Assembly (NCBI GenBank): GCA_027314845.1
Contig: DAHVAA010000047.1
Coordinates: 1-9,367, forward strand
Direction of reading: 5' to 3'
DNA length: 9,367 nt
Source of the DNA: Thermoplasmata archaeon
GTDB taxonomy: Archaea > Thermoplasmatota > Thermoplasmata > UBA184
The notes below the pieces were generated by a model that did no database searches, was not told the DNA's origin, and saw only the letters and a program-made list of their open reading frames with translations. The translations under genes were made by a program, and so were the position numbers. Shown in pieces: positions 400 through 9,318 of this stretch; positions within the stretch are counted from its first letter, which is position 1, and every line of letters begins with the position of its first letter.

Positions 400-1356
400 G
401 TGGACGCAACCGAGCAAGTCGTCAATCTGATGCAGGCAGCGACCGTGCTGCTGCTCTCGCCGCTCCTCGCGGGGGTCCTGGCCCGCTTCAAGGCCTGGAC
501 GGAGTCCCGACAGGGTCCGTCGATCTTCCAGCCCTACTTCGACCTACGCAAGTACCTCCGTAAGGAGACGCTTCTGCCCGACGGCGCCTCGCGCGTCTTC
601 GTCCTGGTCCCGTACGTCTCCTTCGGGACGTACCTCGTGATCTCGGTCGTCGTGCCGATCATCACGCCGTATCCCATCCCGTTCGCCTCGACCGTCGACT
701 TCCTCGGGGGCGGGCTCCTCTTCGGGCTCGCGGGTACCTTGGCACTGCTCGCGGCGCTCGACTCGGGCAGCAACTACGCCGCCCTCGGCGCAAGCCGCAC
801 AGCCACGTTCGCCGCCTTCGCCGAGCCGACGCTGATCATCGTGTTCTTCGCCGTGGCCGTGATTACTGGAACGAACAACCCGTACGTCACGAACCACCTC
901 CTCGCCTCCTCCGCGTCCGCGTACCTGTCGCCGACCCACCTCTTGGTGACCGGCGCGTTCTTCCTCCTGCTCCTCGCCGAGACGGGCAAGCTGCCGGTCG
1001 AGAGCGCCGGTCTCATGGAGTTCGGGATGCTCGAAGAGGGACGCTCCTTCGAGCACTCCGGCCGCCTGCTCGGCCTCCTGCGCTGGAACGGCTGGATGAA
1101 GCAGTTCCTGCTGTACTCGGTCTTCCTCAACGTCTTCGCCGTGCCGTGGGGGATGATCGCGGCACCGACCGTCTTCGGTGCGGCGGAGAACGTCGGGCTC
1201 CTCCTCGCGAAACTGCTGCTCCTCGCCGGGGGGCTCGCCTTGCTCGAGGCGACGATCGCGAAGGTCCGGCTGTTCAAGATCCGGGATTTCCTCACGCTCT
1301 CCTTCTCGCTCGCGATCCTCTCGGTCTTCGCGTTCGCGGTCCTGGGGGTGGCGTAG
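400..1356 (+). CDS. hyfC: HyfC/EchB/NuoH-like membrane anchor subunit
   Basis: A 318-residue integral membrane protein of the NuoH/HycD/HyfC family, which joins the peripheral and membrane arms of group 4 hydrogenase-type complexes. The family signature loops are visible: RQGPSIFQPYFDLRKYLRKE (about residues 37-56), GASRTATFAAFAEP (130-143), and ETGKLPVESAG followed by LEEGRSFEHSG (194-221), which carry the conserved acidic residues of the loops facing the peripheral arm. About eight hydrophobic segments are seen and the length is normal for the family. The start is GTG at 400, with GGAG (388-391) eight bases upstream. It is the first gene of the operon and its stop directly abuts the next start. 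HyfC is preferred over true NuoH because of the company of hyfE, hyfF and hyfB. Family assignment is firm; substrate is not. Confidence 0.93.
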   Translation: MDATEQVVNLMQAATVLLLSPLLAGVLARFKAWTESRQGPSIFQPYFDLRKYLRKETLLPDGASRVFVLVPYVSFGTYLVISVVVPIITPYPIPFASTVDFLGGGLLFGLAGTLALLAALDSGSNYAALGASRTATFAAFAEPTLIIVFFAVAVITGTNNPYVTNHLLASSASAYLSPTHLLVTGAFFLLLLAETGKLPVESAGLMEFGMLEEGRSFEHSGRLLGLLRWNGWMKQFLLYSVFLNVFAVPWGMIAAPTVFGAAENVGLLLAKLLLLAGGLALLEATIAKVRLFKIRDFLTLSFSLAILSVFAFAVLGVA

Positions 1357-2004
1357 GTGCCGGTCACCTCCGAGGTCTCGGCGCTCGTGGGCGTCGGGAT
1401 CCTCCTCACCGCGCTCTACCTCCAGTCGGAGTCGTTCGTCGCGCCGCTGATCCGGGGCATCGCGATCCAGTCCCTGCTCCTCGCGGTGCTCCTCGGCTGG
1501 CTTGCCTGGACCGACGCAAGCCCCGACCTCGCGATCCTCGCCGCCCTCACCATCGCGATCCGGGCGCTGTTCATCCCGGCGTTCCTGCGACGGCAGATCC
1601 GTGCGTTCCGCTGGCGGTTGCGCGAGGTCCACGCGGCGCACCGGGTGACCGGCCACGCGCTCGCCGCGGTCGCGCTCGCGATCATCGCCTGGTTTGTCTT
1701 CCAGGAGACCCTCGCCCCGGTCTTTCCCGAGAAGGGTGCCGCGCTGCCGTTCGTTCTCCTGGTCCAGGGCCTCCTGATGCTCGCCACCCGGACGAACACG
1801 CTCGTCCAGGTGATCGGCTACCTCGAGGAGGAGAACGCAATCGTCTACGCCGGCGTGCTCTTCGCCAGCACCTTCCCGCTGTTTGTCGAGACCGTCGTCT
1901 TCCTCGACGTCCTCGGGGTCGTGCTCGTCGGGGTCATCCTGTCGATCCAGCGAGATGTCACGGGCGTGCCGGAGGCCGCGGGCCTCGAGGAGCTTTCGGG
2001 ATGA
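1357..2004 (+). CDS. hyfE: HyfE-like membrane subunit (NuoK-related)
   Basis: A 215-residue hydrophobic protein, close to the usual HyfE length of about 216. Its C-terminal half resembles NuoK: the segment QVIGYLEEENAIVYAG (about residues 149-164) has the NuoK-type GYL...EN motif with membrane-embedded glutamates, followed by a helix with FVETVVFLD (about 175-183). The N-terminal half adds helices and a basic loop rich in Arg (about 70-90, FLRRQIRAFRWRLRE). In the family this subunit contributes part of the proton path between the anchor and the antiporter-like subunits. The GTG start immediately follows the hyfC stop (no gap), with GGGGTG (1345-1350) as a plausible ribosome binding site. Its stop overlaps the hyfF start as ATGA. 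Confidence 0.9.
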   Translation: MPVTSEVSALVGVGILLTALYLQSESFVAPLIRGIAIQSLLLAVLLGWLAWTDASPDLAILAALTIAIRALFIPAFLRRQIRAFRWRLREVHAAHRVTGHALAAVALAIIAWFVFQETLAPVFPEKGAALPFVLLVQGLLMLATRTNTLVQVIGYLEEENAIVYAGVLFASTFPLFVETVVFLDVLGVVLVGVILSIQRDVTGVPEAAGLEELSG

Positions 2005-3440
2005 CCGCCTTCCCCGCGTCGTCGTTCTGGGTATTCCTCGTTCTCGCCGCCCCGGCGTCCGCGTCGGTCCTGTCGCTCGTTCCCCACGCGGCGGCGAGCC
2101 GTTGGGCGGCGCGCACCGGTGCGCTCCTCGCCCTCCTCGCGGCCGCGGCCCTGCTCGTCTCCTCGACCGCGGGCCGCTGGGGTCCGTACCTCGGCGTCGA
2201 CGCGCTCAGCGAGGTGTTCCTTCTGATGGTCGCGAGCATCTACGCGACCAGCGTCTGGTACTCGGACGGGTATCTCGCGGCCGTCCACCGTCCGTTCCTG
2301 ACCCCCCAGGTCTACTACGCGCTGCTCGGCGCGTTCGCCTTCGCGATGCTTGCGACGCTTGTCGTCACCGACCTCGGGCTGATGTGGATCGGGATCGAGG
2401 CGACGACGGTTGCGAGCGCGCTCCTGGTTGTCCTGGAGCGGCGGCCCACGAGCGTGGAGGCGGCGTGGCGGTACACCCTGATCGCGTCCGCGGGGCTCAC
2501 GGTTGCGCTGTTCGCGCTCCTCCTGATCTACGCGTCGACCGGCTCTCTCGACGCATTCCGCCTCGCCGCGTCGCCGCCCCCTGTGACCCGCACCCTCCTC
2601 ATGGCGGTCGCGCTCGCGCTCGTCGGGTACGGTACTAAGGTCGGGCTTTTCCCGATGCATACCTGGCTGCCCGACGCCCACTCGGAGGCCCCCTCGCCCG
2701 TCTCGGCGATGTTCTCGGGGGTCCTGTTGCCGACCGCCCTCTACGCGTTCCTGCGCGTCTACGCGCTCGTGCCCCGGCCGGTGCCCCCGTCGATCGAGGC
2801 GCTGCTGCTCGCCTTCGGGCTCCTGACGGCGGTCCTCGGCGCGTTCCTCCTCCAGCGCCAGCGGTCGTTCAAGCGGATGTTCGCCTACTCGAGCATGGAG
2901 GTGATGGGGCTCGCGCTCGTCGGGGTCGGGATCGGCGGGATTGCCCTCTACGGGGCTCTCCTGCTCCTGTTCGCGCACGCGTTCGCAAAGTCGTCGGCGT
3001 TCTACTGCGCGGGCAACGTGCTCCGCGCTGACGGCACGACCCACATCGACGACATCCGGGACCTCCGGCACCGGCTCCCCCGCACCGCCGGGGCATGGGT
3101 CCTCGCCTCCAGCGCCGTGACGGGGGCACCCCCGTTCGGAACGTTCGTGGGCGAGCTCCTGATTGTCGCCGGGGCGATCACGGCAGGCCTCACCCCGGTC
3201 GCGCTCGTCGTCATCCTTGCGATCCTGGTCGCGTTCCTCGGCGTGAACTCCCAGGTCGGCCGCATGGTCTTTGGGGCGCCGTCCGGCCTCCGCCCAGCAA
3301 CGCCGTCCGGGCCGGACCGGGGCGCGGGCATCGCCTGGCTGAACGTCGGTGTCGCCCTCGTGCTCGGAGTGGTGGCGATCCCCTACCTTGGGCCGGCGCT
3401 GCGCTCCGCGGCAGCCCTCCTCGGGGGCAGCGCTCCATGA
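2001..3440 (+). CDS. hyfF: HyfF-like antiporter-type membrane subunit
   Basis: A 479-residue subunit of the NuoL/M/N and Mrp antiporter family, expected to move protons or sodium ions. Key elements are in place: glutamate 133 in MWIGIEATT (TM5), lysine 213 in GYGTKVGLFPMHTWLPDAHS with histidine 220 (TM7 and following loop), lysine 291 in SFKRMFAYSSMEVMG, and the TM8-type pair H326/K330 in LFAHAFAKSSAFYCAG. The ATG at 2001 overlaps the hyfE stop by 4 nt and has GAGGAG (1987-1992) eight bases upstream, which fixes the start. An in-frame open region continues further upstream but lies inside hyfC/hyfE and is not coding. The position after hyfE and the HTWLPDAHSEAPSP motif favour HyfF over HyfD, although 479 residues would also suit a HyfD-type protein. 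Confidence 0.9.
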   Translation: MTAFPASSFWVFLVLAAPASASVLSLVPHAAASRWAARTGALLALLAAAALLVSSTAGRWGPYLGVDALSEVFLLMVASIYATSVWYSDGYLAAVHRPFLTPQVYYALLGAFAFAMLATLVVTDLGLMWIGIEATTVASALLVVLERRPTSVEAAWRYTLIASAGLTVALFALLLIYASTGSLDAFRLAASPPPVTRTLLMAVALALVGYGTKVGLFPMHTWLPDAHSEAPSPVSAMFSGVLLPTALYAFLRVYALVPRPVPPSIEALLLAFGLLTAVLGAFLLQRQRSFKRMFAYSSMEVMGLALVGVGIGGIALYGALLLLFAHAFAKSSAFYCAGNVLRADGTTHIDDIRDLRHRLPRTAGAWVLASSAVTGAPPFGTFVGELLIVAGAITAGLTPVALVVILAILVAFLGVNSQVGRMVFGAPSGLRPATPSGPDRGAGIAWLNVGVALVLGVVAIPYLGPALRSAAALLGGSAP

Positions 3441-4762
3441 CGTCCCGACCCTGGAGCGAGTCCCTGCGGGGACCCGCCGGCGCGCTCGGCACGGAGCACG
3501 CCCCGGCCTACCTCCCGATCGACCGCGCGTTCGCTCTGGTCAACGACTACGGGACCGGTCATGCGCTCCTCTGGAGGGGTCCCGCGCCCGCGGAGGCGAA
3601 CGAAGTCGCTACCCTCTGGCGACGCGCGGCCGAGGCTCCGCGGCCGCACCGCGTCGCGCCAGAGGAAGTGGTCGAGGGGTACGGGGTCTTCACGTTCCCG
3701 TACGGACCGATTTCGATGGGGGTCCCTGAGAGCGGACGGTTCGACGTCCGGACCTACGGGGAGCGGATTCTCACCCTCGGACCGGTGGCGGGGTTCAAGT
3801 CGCGTCGGATCCTGGGCGCCCTTCCGGGGCTTACGCCGGAGGACGCCCTCCTGCGCGTGGAGCGGCTCGCCGGTAACTTCTCGGCCGCCCACGCGGCGGC
3901 GTTCCTCGCGGCGGTCGAGAGTGCCGCCGCGATCGAGGTCGCCCGCACCGAGCTGTGGACCCGCGCGCTCGCTCAGGAGCTCGAGCGGATTTACAACCAC
4001 CTCCACCAGATCGCCCGCGTCGCGGAGGCGGCCAGCCAGAACGTTGGCCTGGCCCAAACCCATGCGCTCGCCGAGGAGATGCTCCGCATCGAAGGGAGGA
4101 CCTTCGGGCATCGATGGCTGTTCGGCGCCCTCGCTCCGGGAGCTCCGACCCGCCGTCTCGATCCGGAAGGGAGGAGATGGCTTGGGCGCGCCCTCCGGGA
4201 GCTCTCGGGCCGGTTCGAGGTGCTCCTCGAGTTGTTCCTCGGGTCCCGCACGTTCGTCGACCGTCTCCAGACGACCGGCGTCGTCTCCCGCGAGCGGGCG
4301 GTGCGATGGGGGGCGGTCGGGCCGGTCCTGAGAGCCACCGGCGTGGCCTGGGACGACCGGCTGCGCGCCCCATCGGTCCCATACACCGACCTCTTCCTCG
4401 AGCTTCCGCGTGAGGATGGGGGTGACGCCCTCGCCCGGATCCTGGTGCGCGCGCACGAGGTCCGCTCGAGCGCGCTCCTTTTGGAACAGCTCCTCGACCG
4501 CTGGCCCGGCGACGCGATGGCCCGGGAGGCGCCCGCGCCTCCGGTCGGCCCGGGCCGGGGCCTCGGTCGGGTCGAAAGCCCGAGCGGGGACCTCGTGTAC
4601 GAGGTTCGGCTCACGAACGGGCGTATCGCGAGCGTCGGGATGCGCTCGGCGAGCCACGCGAACTGGCCGGTCTTCGCCGAGAGCCTGCGCCACGCGATGT
4701 TCACGGACTTCCACTTCGCCTGGGAGAGCTTCGGGCTCGTCTTTGCGGAGACCGACGCCTGA
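3437..4762 (+). CDS. hyfG: HyfG-like large subunit lacking all [NiFe] ligands (Ehr-like, non-hydrogenase)
   Basis: A 441-residue protein of the group 4 hydrogenase large subunit / NuoD family. Recognisable are GPISMGVPESGRF (about 90-102), ERLAGNFSAAHAAAF (142-156), ELERIYNHLHQIA (181-193), and EEMLRIEGRTFGHRWLFG (213-230). Real hydrogenases have RxCGxC at the second site; here it is R143-L-A-G-N-F148, with only the following His152 kept. The C-terminal DPCxxC is replaced by FTDFHFAWESFGL (422-434). There is no cysteine anywhere, so a [NiFe] centre cannot be bound. The usual GPxH becomes GPIS (S93) and GYxHRG becomes GFKSRR (119-124). The NuoC-like N-terminal domain of HycE/HyfG (about 570 residues in E. 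coli HycE) is mostly missing. ATG overlaps the hyfF stop by 4 nt. Conserved cores such as YNHLH suggest a functional protein, not decay. The acceptor is unknown. Confidence 0.88.
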   Translation: MTSRPWSESLRGPAGALGTEHAPAYLPIDRAFALVNDYGTGHALLWRGPAPAEANEVATLWRRAAEAPRPHRVAPEEVVEGYGVFTFPYGPISMGVPESGRFDVRTYGERILTLGPVAGFKSRRILGALPGLTPEDALLRVERLAGNFSAAHAAAFLAAVESAAAIEVARTELWTRALAQELERIYNHLHQIARVAEAASQNVGLAQTHALAEEMLRIEGRTFGHRWLFGALAPGAPTRRLDPEGRRWLGRALRELSGRFEVLLELFLGSRTFVDRLQTTGVVSRERAVRWGAVGPVLRATGVAWDDRLRAPSVPYTDLFLELPREDGGDALARILVRAHEVRSSALLLEQLLDRWPGDAMAREAPAPPVGPGRGLGRVESPSGDLVYEVRLTNGRIASVGMRSASHANWPVFAESLRHAMFTDFHFAWESFGLVFAETDA

Positions 4763-4769
4763 GGAGGAG
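4761..4769 (+). promoter_or_regulatory. Strong Shine-Dalgarno site deciding the hyfHI start
   Basis: GAGGAGGAG begins inside the hyfG stop codon and ends three bases before the GTG at 4773; its first GGAGG-type register gives 5-7 nt spacing. It supports GTG 4773 as the start of the fused HyfH-HyfI protein, although the frame is open much further upstream inside hyfG. Confidence 0.7.
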
Positions 4770-4772
4770 CGA

Positions 4773-5531
4773 GTGTCGAGCTGGGTGGGGCAGGCGATCC
4801 GACGTGGCCGGCTCACGACCCGGTACCCGGCGGAGCCGGCGACCGAGCTTGAGCTGCCGATGCTCGCCCGGGCGCCCCGACCCCCGGCCGTCGTGCCGGA
4901 TCGGCTCGGGGCGATCGCCGCGTGCCCCGTCGCGGCGCTCTCGGCGGCCGGTGGGAGTGGGATCCGCGCGGACGATGGGCGCTGCATCCGGTGCGCCCGG
5001 TGCGCGGCGCACGGGTTCGACTTCAGCGGTTCGGCCGAGTGCTCCCGGCCGGACCGTGCCGGCCTCCTCGTCCCCCCGGTGCCGAGCGGACCGGGCGCTC
5101 GGGCGGTCCCGCTCCGTCAGCTCGGACGCTCGGTTCACGTCTTCCTGGTCGATGCTGGGAGCTGCAACGCGTGCAATCACGAGGTGCTCGCGCTCACGAA
5201 CCCGTACTACGACGCCCAGCGCCTCGGCATCTTCTTCACGAACTCCCCACGCCACGCCGACGTGCTCCTCGTGGTCGGGGTCCCGACAGCCGAGATGACC
5301 GAGCCGGTGCGGCGGGCGTTCGAGGCGCTCCCCTCACCGAAAGCGGTCGTCGCGGTCGGGGTCTGCCCGATCGGCGGGGGGGTCTTCCAAAGCACCCCGG
5401 GGCTCGCGGGCTCGCTCGAGGAGCTCGTGCCGGTCGACGCGTTCGTGCCGGGGTGTCCTCCCGCGCCGGTGAGCGTGCTCGACGCGATCCTCGGGCTCCT
5501 GGGTCGGTCCCGGGCCCGGACGGAGGGGTGA
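4773..5531 (+). CDS. hyfI: HyfH-HyfI fusion: one-cluster ferredoxin domain plus NuoB-like small subunit
   Basis: A 252-residue electron-transfer subunit in two parts. Residues 1-95 match the HyfH/HycF start (RGRLTTRYPAEP, 11-22) followed by a reduced ferredoxin: C51 in ACPVAA, then CIRCARC (C71, C74, C77) and a further C90. One CP cysteine plus one CxxCxxC is the ligand set of a single [4Fe-4S] cluster; the other half of the usual two-cluster fold is missing. Residues 115-245 are the small subunit: GSCNACNHE (C131, C134), GVCPIGGG (C198) and PGCPP (C228) give all four ligands of the proximal cluster. In the family this cluster passes electrons to the large subunit. The GTG start follows a strong ribosome binding site 10 nt after hyfG. 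hyfH and hyfI are normally separate genes, so this is a fusion. Confidence 0.9.
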   Translation: MSSWVGQAIRRGRLTTRYPAEPATELELPMLARAPRPPAVVPDRLGAIAACPVAALSAAGGSGIRADDGRCIRCARCAAHGFDFSGSAECSRPDRAGLLVPPVPSGPGARAVPLRQLGRSVHVFLVDAGSCNACNHEVLALTNPYYDAQRLGIFFTNSPRHADVLLVVGVPTAEMTEPVRRAFEALPSPKAVVAVGVCPIGGGVFQSTPGLAGSLEELVPVDAFVPGCPPAPVSVLDAILGLLGRSRARTEG

Positions 5532-5537
5532 ACCGCC

Positions 5538-7544
5538 GTGGATCTCGCGGGAGTTCTCCTCACGGTCGCCATTGCCAGCTTCTTCGCCGGCGCACCGCTC
5601 TCCCTCATCCGCCGCGACCTCGGCTACCTCACGACGTTCGGGGCCGCGCTCCTCTTCGGGGCGGTCGCGGTCGATGCCCTGCTCTTCGGACCGGTCCGAG
5701 GAGCCGCGTGGGGCGGCCCGCTCGGCGACGTGGAGACGCTCTCGCTGGATGCGCTCTCCGCGTTCTTCGCGCTCGCGACGTCGGTCGTCTGGGCCGCGAC
5801 ATCCGTCTACTCCGTGTGGTACGACGACCGCCCTTCGCCGGTCCTCGCCGTCACCTACGCGCTCACGCTCGGAGCGATCGCGCTCCTCGTCACCGCGTCG
5901 AGCGAGGTGTTGTTCCTGATCGGCTGGGAGACGATGACGCTCGCCTCCTACGGGATGATCCTCGAGGCCCGGGGCCGGACCGACCGGGTCTACTCGGCGG
6001 CGTTCGTCTTCCTCGCGTTCGGAGAGGCGAGCACGTTGCTCGTCCTTCTCGCCTTCGCGGGCCTCTTCGTCGGCACGGGCTCGCTGGCGTTCGGTCCGAC
6101 GCTCTCGGGAACCGTCCTTCCTTCGCTCGTCTTCGTCGCGGGTCTCCTCGGCTTCGGACTCAAGATGGGAACCGCGCCGTTCCACATGAGCGAGTGGCTG
6201 CCGATCGCGCACTCCTCCGCCCCCTCGAACGCCTCCGCGGTCCTCAGCTCGACGCTGACGCTCGCCGGCGCGTACGGCCTGTTCCGGCTCGTGAGCCTCC
6301 TGCCGGGCCCTCCGGACTGGTGGGGGGCACTGACGCTCGCGATCGGTGCGATCTCGGTCCTCCTCGGGGCGCTCTTTGCCGCCGTCAGCGAGCACTCGAA
6401 GGGCCTGCCGGCCTACAGCACCATCGAGAACAACGGACTGATCCTGGTCGCGCTCGGGGTCAGCCTGCTGGCCGGGGCGAACCATCTCACGCTCCTCGCA
6501 GTCTTCGCGCTCTTCGCGGCGTTCTACCAGGCGCTCGCGCACGCGCTGGCGAAGACCGTCCTCTTCCTCAGCGCGGGGTACGTCGAGCACCTGACCCGCA
6601 CCTTCGACCTCTCGTCGGTCGAGGGCCGGGCGACGGGTCCCGACCGGGCTGCGCTCGTCGGGACGCTGGCTGCGTCGCTGAGCCTCGCCGCCGGCCCTCC
6701 CCTCGCGGGCTTCGTCAGTGAATGGATGGTCCTCGAGGCGCTCTTCCAGTCGTACCGCTTCGGCGAGACTTGGGCGCAGTTCGTCGGGCTGCTCACGGGG
6801 GCCGCGGTCGCCCTCGGCGCCGGCCTCATCACGGTCGCGATGGTCAAGTTCGTCGGGTTTGCCTACCTGTGGAAGCCCCGCGGCGCCCGGGCGCCGTCGG
6901 AACGCGGGAGTCTCGGGCCGGTGGTGGGCGCCGTCGCGTTCGCCGTTCTCACGGTCGGCATCACGGCCCCGTGGATTCTCGTCCTCCTCGCCCCTTCGGT
7001 CTCCGTGGTCATGGGCTCGTCGGTCGCCGCCCCCATCGGTGGTCTCCTCTCCGTCCCGAACGGCTGGTCGATACTTTCGGGGGCGCCGTTCGGGATCCTC
7101 TCGCCCCCGATGGTGCCGATCGCGATCGCGGCGGGAGTGCTGGTCGCGGTCGGCTACGACCGTCTCGGTCGGCACCGGGCGGTCCGGCGAGTGCCGGTCT
7201 GGATGGCGGGGAGCGCCCCGGCCCGGGAAGGGGAAACGTACACCTCGTTCGGCTACTCGACCGGGATCCGCCTCATGATGAGTTCCGCGCTCCGGACCCG
7301 CGAGGTCCGGGCGAACGCCGGAGCCGTCACCACCGTTGGCCTCGAGGCGGTGGAGCCGTACAGTGTAGAGCTCGAGGTCTTCGACGTGTTCAAGTTGTTC
7401 TACGACGGGTTGCTGGTCGTTGGCGAGGGGGTGAGCCGCGTCCTCAAGGAGCGCGTGATGCCGGGGCAGCTTGGCCGGTACCTCGCGTACGTGCTGGTGG
7501 CAGTCCTCGTGGTCGTCGTGTACATCGCGTCGGTCTCGACCTGA
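5538..7544 (+). CDS. hyfB: HyfB-like antiporter-type membrane subunit
   Basis: A 668-residue protein of the NuoL/Mrp antiporter family, close to E. coli HyfB (672). Ion-path residues are present: glutamate 131 in LIGWETMTLASYG, lysine 209 in GFGLKMGTAPFH with H216, then EWLPIAHSSAPSNASAVLS, lysine 288 in EHSKGLPAYSTIENNG, and H335/K339 in QALAHALAKTVLF. AYSTIENNG and the C-terminal hydrophilic stretch GETYTSFGYSTGIRLMMSS (about 564-582) are HyfB-like. A final hydrophobic helix (about 648-665) ends the protein. The GTG start lies 6 nt after the hyfHI stop, with GGAGG at 5522-5526. hyfB usually stands first in hyf operons; here it is last. It should supply a second ion channel next to HyfF. Confidence 0.92.
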   Translation: MDLAGVLLTVAIASFFAGAPLSLIRRDLGYLTTFGAALLFGAVAVDALLFGPVRGAAWGGPLGDVETLSLDALSAFFALATSVVWAATSVYSVWYDDRPSPVLAVTYALTLGAIALLVTASSEVLFLIGWETMTLASYGMILEARGRTDRVYSAAFVFLAFGEASTLLVLLAFAGLFVGTGSLAFGPTLSGTVLPSLVFVAGLLGFGLKMGTAPFHMSEWLPIAHSSAPSNASAVLSSTLTLAGAYGLFRLVSLLPGPPDWWGALTLAIGAISVLLGALFAAVSEHSKGLPAYSTIENNGLILVALGVSLLAGANHLTLLAVFALFAAFYQALAHALAKTVLFLSAGYVEHLTRTFDLSSVEGRATGPDRAALVGTLAASLSLAAGPPLAGFVSEWMVLEALFQSYRFGETWAQFVGLLTGAAVALGAGLITVAMVKFVGFAYLWKPRGARAPSERGSLGPVVGAVAFAVLTVGITAPWILVLLAPSVSVVMGSSVAAPIGGLLSVPNGWSILSGAPFGILSPPMVPIAIAAGVLVAVGYDRLGRHRAVRRVPVWMAGSAPAREGETYTSFGYSTGIRLMMSSALRTREVRANAGAVTTVGLEAVEPYSVELEVFDVFKLFYDGLLVVGEGVSRVLKERVMPGQLGRYLAYVLVAVLVVVVYIASVST

Positions 7545-7551
7545 GACCGAC
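7529..7551 (+). terminator. Inverted repeat spanning the hyfB stop codon
   Basis: GTCGGTCTC (7529-7537) and GAGACCGAC (7543-7551) form a perfect 9-bp stem with the 5-nt loop GACCT, and the TGA stop of hyfB is partly inside it. It could protect or end the operon transcript. No T-tract follows, so intrinsic termination in the archaeal sense is not shown. The stem is clear; its function is inferred. Confidence 0.4.
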
Positions 7552-7564
7552 GGCGATCGCCGTC
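7549..7564 (+). repeat. 16-nt perfect palindrome after hyfB
   Basis: GACGGCGATCGCCGTC is a perfect palindrome. Its first three bases are also the end of the preceding stem, so the two structures compete at that edge. The inner 12 bases CGGCGATCGCCG are identical to the palindrome in the tRNA intron (197-208). It may be an mRNA-end structure or a protein binding site; nothing in the sequence decides. Confidence 0.45.
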
Positions 7565-8374
7565 ATCGGTCCGGGCCCGAACGCTTCCGCGACCCGACGC
7601 CCGGCGAGCTGCCGCCCCGATCGAGTGCCACCGGCAAAAGGAGCGCCGCGGACCGGGCGTCAAGGGGGCCGACTCCGAGAACTCGGGCGGAGCGCTGTGG
7701 AACGCCCGAGGGCGCCGACCAGGGTCGAGCTCACCAATCTCGTGACTCCGGGCCGGCCGTGACACCGGCCGGACGCTCGCCCGACCCTGTCTCGCCCTAC
7801 GGTGCGGCCGATCCGGCTCGATTCGGCCACGTCGAGCAGGGGGATCCGACACTGCCGACCCGGACCGCGAGGACGGCGAAGACGACCGTCGGGGTGAGGA
7901 GAAAGGGCAGGTCGACCGGGACGATCCGGAGGCAGCATCCGGGCTCGAGGCCTGCCCGGAGGAAGTGATCGGAGAGGGGGCCGACCGGAGGCGACCCTCC
8001 TGTGAAGACGAGGCTGGAGCGCCGGCACGCTCCGATCGGCCAAGCGGTTGCGACGGCAAGGGGCGTTCGGTCACGGCCGTCGTCGTGTAGCCCACGGGCC
8101 TACTGCGGTGGCGGTCGGCGCGCCGACCCGCCGCGCTCTCGAGCAGAACGGGACGGCGCGCTCGGCGAAGATCGCGTCCCCCCGATCGCCTCGATGACGA
8201 GGGAGGAGGCCCGAGGTCGAGCGCCAAGGATAATGGCAGGGTCGGAAAGAGCATCTCTCGTCGCTCCGGTCGGTAGGGAGGCGGATGATCAGGATCGCTC
8301 GGACCTTCCTGGGCACCGGCTCCCGGCCCGCGGAGGTGGAGGAATCTCCGGCGCGAACGGGGAGGCCTTCCCCC
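7565..8374. other. About 800 bases without a convincing gene
   Basis: This stretch between the two convergent operons has open frames on both strands, but all give Arg/Pro/Ser-rich translations with no recognisable domain, as expected for GC-rich DNA with few stop codons. No tRNA, rRNA, CRISPR or insertion sequence was seen. The most gene-like item is a start-less open frame on the minus strand (7797-8099, 100 codons), with a hydrophobic stretch VDLPFLLTPTVVFAVLAVRV and mostly G/C-ending codons; it could be the remnant of a small membrane protein. A second weak candidate is an ATG at 8254 on the minus strand with a hydrophobic beginning (MLFPTLPLSLALDL) and GGAG upstream, but it soon turns low-complexity. 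Confidence 0.5.
8354..8374 (-). terminator. Possible hairpin after the universal stress protein gene
   Basis: Directly after the TAA stop, the minus strand reads GGGGGAAGGCCTCCCCG, in which GGGGA and TCCCC can form a 5-bp stem around AGGCC. No T-tract follows. It is placed where a transcript end is expected for the minus-strand operon, but the stem is short and support is weak. Confidence 0.2.
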
Positions 8375-8857
8375 TTACGGCACGACTGTCACCGGGACGG
8401 TCGAGCCGACCACGACCCGGCCCGAGACCGAGCCGAGGAGCAGCCGCTCGGCACGGCCCAGACCCCGGGTGCCCACGAAGATCGCCGTCGCGCCAACCTC
8501 CTGGGCGACCCGGAGGAGAACCTCGGCGGCCGGTCCTTCCCGGCTCAGTGCCTCCGCCTTGATCCCTTGCGCACCGGCCTCGGCGGCGAGCCGCTCCAGC
8601 GTGTGGGCGACCGCGCGGGCCGGGGAGCTCGCCTCCTCTTCCGTCAGGGGTTCAGCCAGCCGACGGTCCCGCTCGGGGGCGTGGACGAGCCAGACCCGCG
8701 AACGATGCTCCCGGGCCATTTCGAGCGCGAGCCGTGCCGCGCGCATCGAGGCCGGGGAGGCGTCGAACCCGACCACGACCCGCTCGAGGGCCGCCCGCGG
8801 AGGGCCCAACGGCTCGGCGGGAGCCCGTAGCGCCAAAGCATCGCCCGGGGTGCTCAC
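8375..8857 (-). CDS. Universal stress protein (UspA family)
   Basis: A 160-residue single-domain Usp protein, likely cytoplasmic. The first strand and helix VVVGFDASPASMRAARLALEMA (about 27-48) is typical of the family. The C-terminal nucleotide-binding signature G-x2-G-x9-G-S is intact: G129-T-R-G132, then G142-S143 in GTRGLGRAERLLLGSVSGRV, which suggests an ATP-binding member. About 20 extra residues precede the domain. The GTG start at 8857 has GGAG about six bases upstream and overlaps the stop of the preceding gene as GTGA, indicating translational coupling. Its length and order of elements are normal. The stress or partner it serves cannot be told; it points towards the hyf-like operon, so the two are convergent and not co-transcribed. 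Confidence 0.92.
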   Translation of the reverse strand: MSTPGDALALRAPAEPLGPPRAALERVVVGFDASPASMRAARLALEMAREHRSRVWLVHAPERDRRLAEPLTEEEASSPARAVAHTLERLAAEAGAQGIKAEALSREGPAAEVLLRVAQEVGATAIFVGTRGLGRAERLLLGSVSGRVVVGSTVPVTVVP

Positions 8858-9318
8858 GGCGCGCTCCTTCCGTGGGGCAGGTACCGTTCGGCGGCACGGT
8901 CGGCGTCAGGGTCCGGAGGAAGATCGGGCCCCTCCTCCGTCCCAGAACGGGTCCGCACCATCGACTCGAGCGCCTTGACCCGGCGGGTCAGCGCCTGATT
9001 CTCCCGGAAGTACCCGGCGGCCTCGAAGTGGACCCGCGCCCGGTCGCTCGCGCAGGCGCTCAGGGCCCGGGCGAGCTCGGCGACCCGCTGCCGGGGCTCC
9101 GTGGCCGGAGGCCCCCGGCGGGGTGGGCCGGGCGGCGGGACTAGCGGGAGCACGGAATGGAGCCAGGCCTCGAACCCCCTCCAGCCGACCTCGTCGAGGT
9201 CGATCCAGGGACGCAGGAGCTTGGCGATCGACCGGGGGAATCCCGGGGCCTCTTCGGCGCGGGGCCCGGTCGGTCCTCGTTCCTCCCTCCGATCCTCGCC
9301 TTCCAACCCCCGGGACAT
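8854..9318 (-). CDS. Unrecognised 154-residue hydrophilic protein
   Basis: No family is recognised. The start is well supported: ATG at 9316-9318 with GGAGG five bases upstream. The protein has a charged, probably disordered N-terminus (1-27), a Trp-rich amphipathic segment RPWIDLDEVGWRGFEAWLHS (36-55), a proline-rich linker (58-73), and a helical part with coiled-coil-like spacing (about 76-122, ending RENQALTRRVKALESMV). An acidic, proline-rich tail follows. It has no signal peptide or membrane helix and a single cysteine (C89), so metal binding is unlikely. The stop overlaps the universal stress protein start by 4 nt, so the two are co-translated. The layout would suit a scaffold or partner protein that oligomerises through the helix; that is inference. 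G/C-ending codons and the ribosome binding site argue for a real gene. Confidence 0.75.
   Translation of the reverse strand: MSRGLEGEDRREERGPTGPRAEEAPGFPRSIAKLLRPWIDLDEVGWRGFEAWLHSVLPLVPPPGPPRRGPPATEPRQRVAELARALSACASDRARVHFEAAGYFRENQALTRRVKALESMVRTRSGTEEGPDLPPDPDADRAAERYLPHGRSAP

Follow-up and report, generated by a model that had tools for sequence, protein, structure and literature searches.

What does a complex do that is built on the plan of an energy-converting hydrogenase and whose large subunit has no cysteine to hold a [NiFe] centre? This question is raised by a stretch of 9,367 nucleotides from a Thermoplasmata archaeon (contig DAHVAA010000047.1 of assembly GCA_027314845.1), hereafter the window, in which six genes at 400–7544, all on the plus strand, form a tight operon. 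Its large subunit, HycE/HyfG/NuoD-like and 441 residues long, is encoded at 3437..4762 on the plus strand and matches Pfam Complex1_49kDa. We propose, with a probability of roughly 0.6, that the six genes encode a complete energy-converting hydrogenase-related (Ehr) complex that would neither make nor use H2. Ehr complexes were reportedly described by Coppi in 2005 and by Marreiros in 2013, as related by the papers that cite them.

A first-pass annotation of this DNA had drawn attention to the absence of cysteine from the large subunit, and its coordinates, frame, start and stop proved correct: the gene is a single open frame of 441 residues, and 0 of the 441 are cysteine. The RxCGxC motif of HycE aligns onto R143-L-A-G-N-F148, where it had been placed before. 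The C-terminal DPCxxC motif had been put at FTDFHFAWESFGL, whereas its columns are G433-L434-V435-F436-A437-E438, a position on which the HycE/HyfG alignment, the loci retrieved with an MbhL query and the structural match agree. Taking D424 as the D of the motif, FTDFHFAWESFGL lies about nine residues off these columns, and both the sequence alignments and the fold comparison rule it out. Among the 40 loci fetched with Pyrococcus MbhL as query, 32 have all four ligand cysteines, 7 are NuoD-like and 1 is partial. HycE is the nearest solved fold to the large subunit, the aligned range of the structural match running to residue 441 of the model and 537 of HycE, and the NuoC-like N-terminal domain is still present. 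The four ligand columns hold A145, F148, V435 and E438 in place of the cysteines of RxCGxC and DPCxxC in group 4 [NiFe] hydrogenases.

We followed these columns through 121 aligned rows, made up of the window protein plus 120 matches, those listed out of 275 from a protein search (the window protein enters twice, as P0001 and P0002); a wider protein search gave 5199 matches, of which 120 were listed, and both searches scored roughly 8000 candidates, those sharing most words. No row has a cysteine at position 145, 148, 435 or 438 (0/121). Ten of the 121 rows have no cysteine at all, and the remainder carry one to four, chiefly in columns 281 and 301. As far as the alignment goes, the missing ligand cysteines are a trait of the family, and the total lack of cysteine is incidental. 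Column 438 is acidic throughout the family (E in 111 rows, D in 10) and likewise in nine NuoD-like rows. The complex is thus predicted to be unable to bind a [NiFe] centre through the known ligand set, and it has the large subunit devoid of Ni- and Fe-ligating cysteines that marks Ehr complexes. Third-position GC is 0.87 in the large-subunit gene against 0.91–0.93 in the four membrane-subunit genes; Rfam, at gathering scores, gave no RNA family match.

The surroundings of the former metal site have changed unevenly. In the structure of formate hydrogenlyase (FHL), the available text of PMC9474812 names a canopy pair, Arg478/Asp529, two loop acids, Asp192/Glu193, which occupy the position of the proton-donating His of complex I, and a proton path of His284, Glu437 and Arg395. 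Neither member of the canopy pair expected of a group 4 [NiFe] hydrogenase is found in the window protein, the Arg478 column being S383 (S in 112 and G in 9 of the 121 rows) and the Asp529 column G433 (121/121). The Asp192 column has become P97 (P115, A6), and the Glu193 column is E98 (E117, D4). All three path residues could be mapped, namely H188 (121/121), E341 (121/121) and R299 (120/121). Metal ligands and both canopy residues are therefore lost, and the loop Glu and the proton path are retained. In NuoD, the second His of GPxHPxTH and a Tyr beside the ligand motif contribute to the quinone site of complex I. The nine NuoD-like rows have His in column 97 (9/9), the canopy Asp (9/9) and a canopy Arg or Lys (8/9); in the window family the His position is the proline of column 97, and the Tyr position is G146 in 121/121 rows.

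The electron-carrying part of the complex is encoded directly downstream, at 4773..5531 on the plus strand, where a half-ferredoxin is fused to a HycG/NuoB domain. Its eight cysteines are present in 41/41 rows (the window and 40 of 45 loci, those with >70% coverage). One [4Fe-4S] cluster is expected in the half-ferredoxin, from C51 and C71xxC74xxC77, and the proximal [4Fe-4S] cluster in the HycG/NuoB domain, from C131, C134, C198 and C228. Its N-terminal part can be aligned with HycF, HyfH and NuoI, from its start and from the TTxYP motif on, but has no counterpart of their first CxxCxxC and last CP. By analogy with NuoI, this presumably means that cluster N6a is gone and N6b kept. For this N-terminal half we rely on sequence alignment, because the fold comparison covered mainly residues 104–250. 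The alignment with MbhJ is gapless, with four proximal cysteines at the spacing of hydrogenases (CNAC), and CNAC stands where NuoB of complex I has the tandem cysteines of cluster N2.

The four remaining genes, all on the plus strand, encode the membrane subunits, for which the NCBIfam matches score below the curated cut-offs. At 400..1356 lies a HyfC/HycD/NuoH-like subunit with E142, E194 and E201 in 33/33 rows and E218 in 31/33, followed at 1357..2004 by a HyfE-like subunit (PRK11492 below its curated cut-off, no Pfam match). The HyfF-like antiporter subunit at 2001..3440 keeps E133, K213, K291, K330 and E385 in 36/36 rows, and the HyfB-like antiporter subunit at 5538..7544 keeps E131, K209, K288, H335, K339 and E395 in 31/31. 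In complex I and its relatives, these Lys, Glu and His residues of the antiporter-like subunits and the acids of the NuoH-like subunit are those of the ion pump. Their conservation would be compatible with a putative translocation of ions coupled to a cytoplasmic redox reaction. The operon thus unites the NuoH-, NuoB-, NuoD- and antiporter-like core of an Ehr complex. The earlier description of the rest of the operon as intact is correct in part: its ferredoxin portion has been reduced to half and joined to the small subunit.

The large-subunit tree that the first-pass annotation had called for was computed from 73 rows (92 aligned rows less 18 near-copies and the partial row L109), with the four ligand columns excluded; named bacterial Ehr references, Geobacter for one, were not part of it. 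The window protein falls into a clade that has no full ligand set and lies outside the hydrogenases, grouping, as expected of an Ehr complex, with other ligand-poor group 4 relatives. In the careful tree, 40 rows with an incomplete ligand set (three with one ligand cysteine, 37 without any) stand on one side of a branch with support 67/92, and these rows together with P0241 on one side of a branch with support 100/100. The next group in the rooted quick tree consists of E. coli HycE/HyfG and two relatives from the phylum. P0241 is a 533-residue Ehr-like large subunit with all four ligand cysteines; the quick tree nests it among the ligand-poor rows, and the careful one sets it immediately outside this group. 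Placed either at the base of the ligand-poor clade or within it, this protein may be a transitional form linking hydrogenases to Ehr. Five ligand-poor rows outside the window family (P0189, P0195, P0225, L016 and L019), three of them included in the tree, have a single cysteine at one ligand column. The simplest history has the [NiFe] site lost once, after this lineage had separated from the Hyc/Hyf-type hydrogenases; it is favoured rather than proven, given the branch support and the way P0241 switches sides between the trees.

The nearest genome and the family it belongs to were surveyed for the maturation of a [NiFe] site. This genome, G001 (2.3 Mb, 92% complete), contains the stretch as well, differing at 47 of 9367 bases and aligning without a gap; three of the differences fall in the large-subunit gene, changing the protein at H42R and M421V. 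A search of G001 for HypD and HypF found neither, though HypC is present (HypA, HypB and HypE were not searched for). Among the 61 genomes of the family of G001, HypD was detected in 2, the HypF motif in 3 (one marginal) and HypC in 31. Another operon of G001 (locus L085, G001 C6:98000-116000, about 4363–10161) encodes a [NiFe] hydrogenase resembling group 3b, including a small subunit of its own; read by eye, its large subunit shows both RICGIC and DPCISC, and the reading frame continues into a protease domain like HycI. The DPCISC motif was verified at five loci, and N-terminal PF00374 matches as strong as that of L085 occur in 33 of the 61 genomes, yet matches to HypD come from 2 genomes and to the HypF motif from 3. 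A second, cysteine-bearing large subunit supplied from elsewhere, which had been named as a finding that would overturn the Ehr assignment, was considered and rejected, the one in G001 being group 3b-like and part of a separate operon with its own subunits. Overall, the replaced ligands and canopy, the place in the ligand-poor clade and the lack of HypD and HypF matches in G001 support the Ehr identity that was proposed at first pass.

Considering these findings, the complex most likely pumps ions at the expense of a redox reaction, with electrons from a ferredoxin-like donor, where we infer both donor and acceptor. A low-potential one-electron donor would dock on the half-ferredoxin domain, and electrons would pass from the N6b-type cluster through the proximal cluster to a substrate bound at the former [NiFe] site. 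There, protonation via E98 would be coupled by the NuoH-like E-channel to the translocation of H+ (or Na+). There is about an even chance that the donor is reduced ferredoxin from 2-oxoacid oxidoreductases; PF01855 (2-oxoacid:ferredoxin oxidoreductase) was found in 10/10 carriers tested, which are listed as 90–97% complete and do not make up all of the 19 carriers in the family. More tentatively, the acceptor could be a membrane quinone, bound by residues unlike those of complex I. The most economical guess pairs ferredoxin as donor with a quinone as acceptor, but the lost canopy and quinone-site residues argue for a chemistry of the pocket's own. Several points weigh against this pump. The 2-oxoacid oxidoreductases are too widespread to discriminate. 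The loss of the quinone His (P97), the Tyr (G146) and the canopy pair speaks against an ordinary quinone site. G001 also holds complex I-type genes (NuoD by Pfam, its neighbours by eye), which would make a second ferredoxin:quinone pump partly redundant, and only 19 of the 61 family genomes carry Ehr at E 1e-60 or better.

Relatives from the class and phylum outside the window family fall into two subgroups split by the ligand columns, A, to which the window belongs, and B, with Ser435 and Gly438. In both, the ferredoxin part is fused to the small subunit. Among the 21 loci with both genes, of 22 inspected (L011-L032), the ferredoxin part has a single CxxCxxC in 13/13 loci of subgroup A and two in 8/8 of subgroup B; L032, outside the alignment used, has one. 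The canopy Arg is present in 19/20 large subunits of subgroup B and in 0/16 proteins of subgroup A outside the window and Nitrososphaerales sets, L031 having Gln. A possible, if speculative, reading is that subgroup A (Thermoplasmata and Nitrososphaerales, with Thermococcus and Aciduliprofundum by the large subunit alone) represents a second step, in which the loss of the [NiFe] ligands was followed by that of one ferredoxin cluster and the canopy, with proton wire and pump kept, and that it reduces a substrate other than H+, sulfane sulfur or a quinone bound as in complex I.

Of the alternatives, the one that survives best, though we consider it doubtful, is that the complex runs in reverse or with no net redox reaction, either driving electrons to ferredoxin at the expense of the proton motive force or working as an Mrp-like antiporter or pH device. 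The antiporter-like subunits are fully conserved, and a universal stress protein gene, linked to the operon in 22 of 26 loci including those of Thermoplasmata and Nitrososphaerales, could fit such a role. Against this reading, the invariance of the eight iron-sulfur cysteines in all 41 small subunits indicates an electron wire under selection; sequence alone cannot tell the direction.

It is improbable that polysulfide or some other sulfane sulfur compound receives its electrons directly from the proximal cluster, as in the membrane-bound sulfane sulfur reductase (MBS) of Pyrococcus. In the available text of PMC7684303, MBS is likewise a ligand-poor relative in the group 4 frame, and it has a ferredoxin donor. 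Its proximal-cluster motif is three residues shorter than that of the membrane-bound hydrogenase and ligates with three cysteines, whereas the window protein keeps four and is gapless to MbhJ; two of the four large-subunit cysteines remain in MBS and none in the window family, and the membrane subunits of MBS are of the Mrp type (PMC7684303). Slightly less probable still is formate dehydrogenase as the electron donor, an arrangement proposed for Cyanobacteria-sibling lineages in the part of PMC6349859 available. G001 does encode a molybdopterin-domain protein that we read as formate dehydrogenase-like, on a different contig. PF00384 (molybdopterin oxidoreductases) is found in only 4 of the 10 carriers tested, however, and neither it nor the FdhF/HycB module of a formate hydrogenlyase is among the window's annotated genes. 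The genomes surveyed argue against a general partnership with formate dehydrogenase in the lineage. Functions like those of MBS, FHL and complex I were each rejected, on the proximal-cluster motif, the missing formate module and the lost quinone-site residues.

That the complex is a real hydrogenase with unusual ligands is very improbable. HycE is the closest solved fold, four cysteines occur in some Ehr-related proteins (P0241 and, in the available text of PMC3569383, the EhrL of Desulfotomaculum ruminis) and five relatives outside the family keep one, but no row of the family has a ligand cysteine, the canopy Arg and Asp are replaced, and HypD and HypF are rare in the family genomes and were found in neither case in G001. 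A decaying gene or a sequencing error can be set aside almost entirely, in line with the earlier view of adaptation rather than decay, since the only hint of it is a neighbouring transporter gene that appears decayed, the second assembly reproduces the stretch free of gaps, more than 100 columns are invariant or nearly so in 25 rows, and the motifs are conserved in 121.

The universal stress protein gene (8375..8857, minus strand), convergent to the operon, is the commonest neighbour in the 26 fetched loci whose sequence includes the whole HyfB end and extends at least 1500 bases further. As a rule, gene and operon converge and lie no more than a few dozen bases apart, with exceptions in L071 (same strand) and in L033 and L037 (an intervening gene, MFS by Pfam in L033). 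The linkage is common to Thermoplasmata and Nitrososphaerales loci (L067, L068, L071 and L072 compared), a pattern suggestive of joint transfer or of a functional link; our literature search found no paper mentioning both hydrogenase-related complexes and universal stress protein. Neighbour annotation covered families recurring in at least three loci, except F16, and yielded ten: universal stress protein, two MutS-type, ABC transporter, NUDIX, MFS, YaaH-type, dynamin-type and two with no Pfam match. Between operon and stress-protein gene (7545–8374), two minus-strand frames of the window hold pieces resembling the transporter whose frame is open at this place in L033 (MFS) and L037, the best match being 47% over 72 residues; these are probably the remains of a neighbouring gene that decayed while the operon did not. 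A 154-residue minus-strand frame at 8854–9318 overlaps the stress-protein gene and has no Pfam match; its similarity cluster spans 16 sources, the window included, and it differs from G001 by nine amino-acid changes. Upstream of the operon lies a tRNA-Arg (anticodon tcg, 131–207), and a long frame upstream in G001, read by eye as the DNA polymerase II large subunit, suggests a chromosomal location.

The window complex belongs to a widespread and already described group, of which we give a sharper anatomical description. In the available text of the respective papers, Ehr is reported from Sulfobacillus, with six syntenic genes (PMC4378227), from Cyanobacteria-sibling lineages including Margulisbacteria (PMC6349859), from the Candidate Phyla Radiation (PMC7304191), from ammonia-oxidising archaea (PMC10432482) and from Nitrospira (PMC10284858), and a four-cysteine EhrL is on record for D. 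ruminis (PMC3569383). No demonstrated function was found in what these texts offer, where it is given as unknown or hypothetical. Putative group 4 hydrogenases of Thermoplasmatales from acid mine drainage have been described as lacking both Ni-binding motifs, "possibly indicating some other function" (Yelton 2013, PMC3750248); by that description these are related archaea with the same motif loss in other lineages. Like Ehr complexes as portrayed in the citing papers' available text, the window has a group 4/complex I-like operon and a large subunit without [NiFe] ligands, and unlike them its subgroup also lacks the canopy Arg/Asp and has one ferredoxin cluster. It shares with E. coli formate hydrogenlyase and Hyf (HycE, HycG, HycF, HyfBCEF) the fold, the NuoC-like N-terminal domain, the membrane subunits and the proton path, and differs in the absence of the cysteine ligands, the canopy pair and HycB/FdhF in the operon and in a HycF part halved and fused to HycG. 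Unlike complex I (NuoD/NuoB/NuoI), it has no tandem NuoB cysteines, no quinone-site His and Tyr, no canopy Asp and no NADH module in the operon.

The 11 organism-named relatives among the 120 matches listed are all labelled Thermoplasmata archaeon. Among named genome contigs, 45 loci were detected, of which 38 come from metagenome-assembled genomes (MAGs) of Thermoplasmata archaeon, 5 from Nitrososphaerales or Nitrososphaeraceae MAGs, 1 from a contig titled archaeon and 1 from a contig titled bacterium. The misleading labels foreseen by the first-pass annotation do occur, relatives being annotated as 'Ni,Fe-hydrogenase III large subunit' and one as 'formate hydrogenlyase subunit 5', and such names could put an invented H2 metabolism into metabolic reconstructions of Thermoplasmata. 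The residues compared here describe a pocket without the chemistry of either hydrogenase or complex I, yet with proton delivery and pumping kept, and they make the question of what Ehr complexes do specific and testable. If the second step proposed for subgroup A is true, this subgroup would represent a further terminal chemistry within the complex I superfamily.

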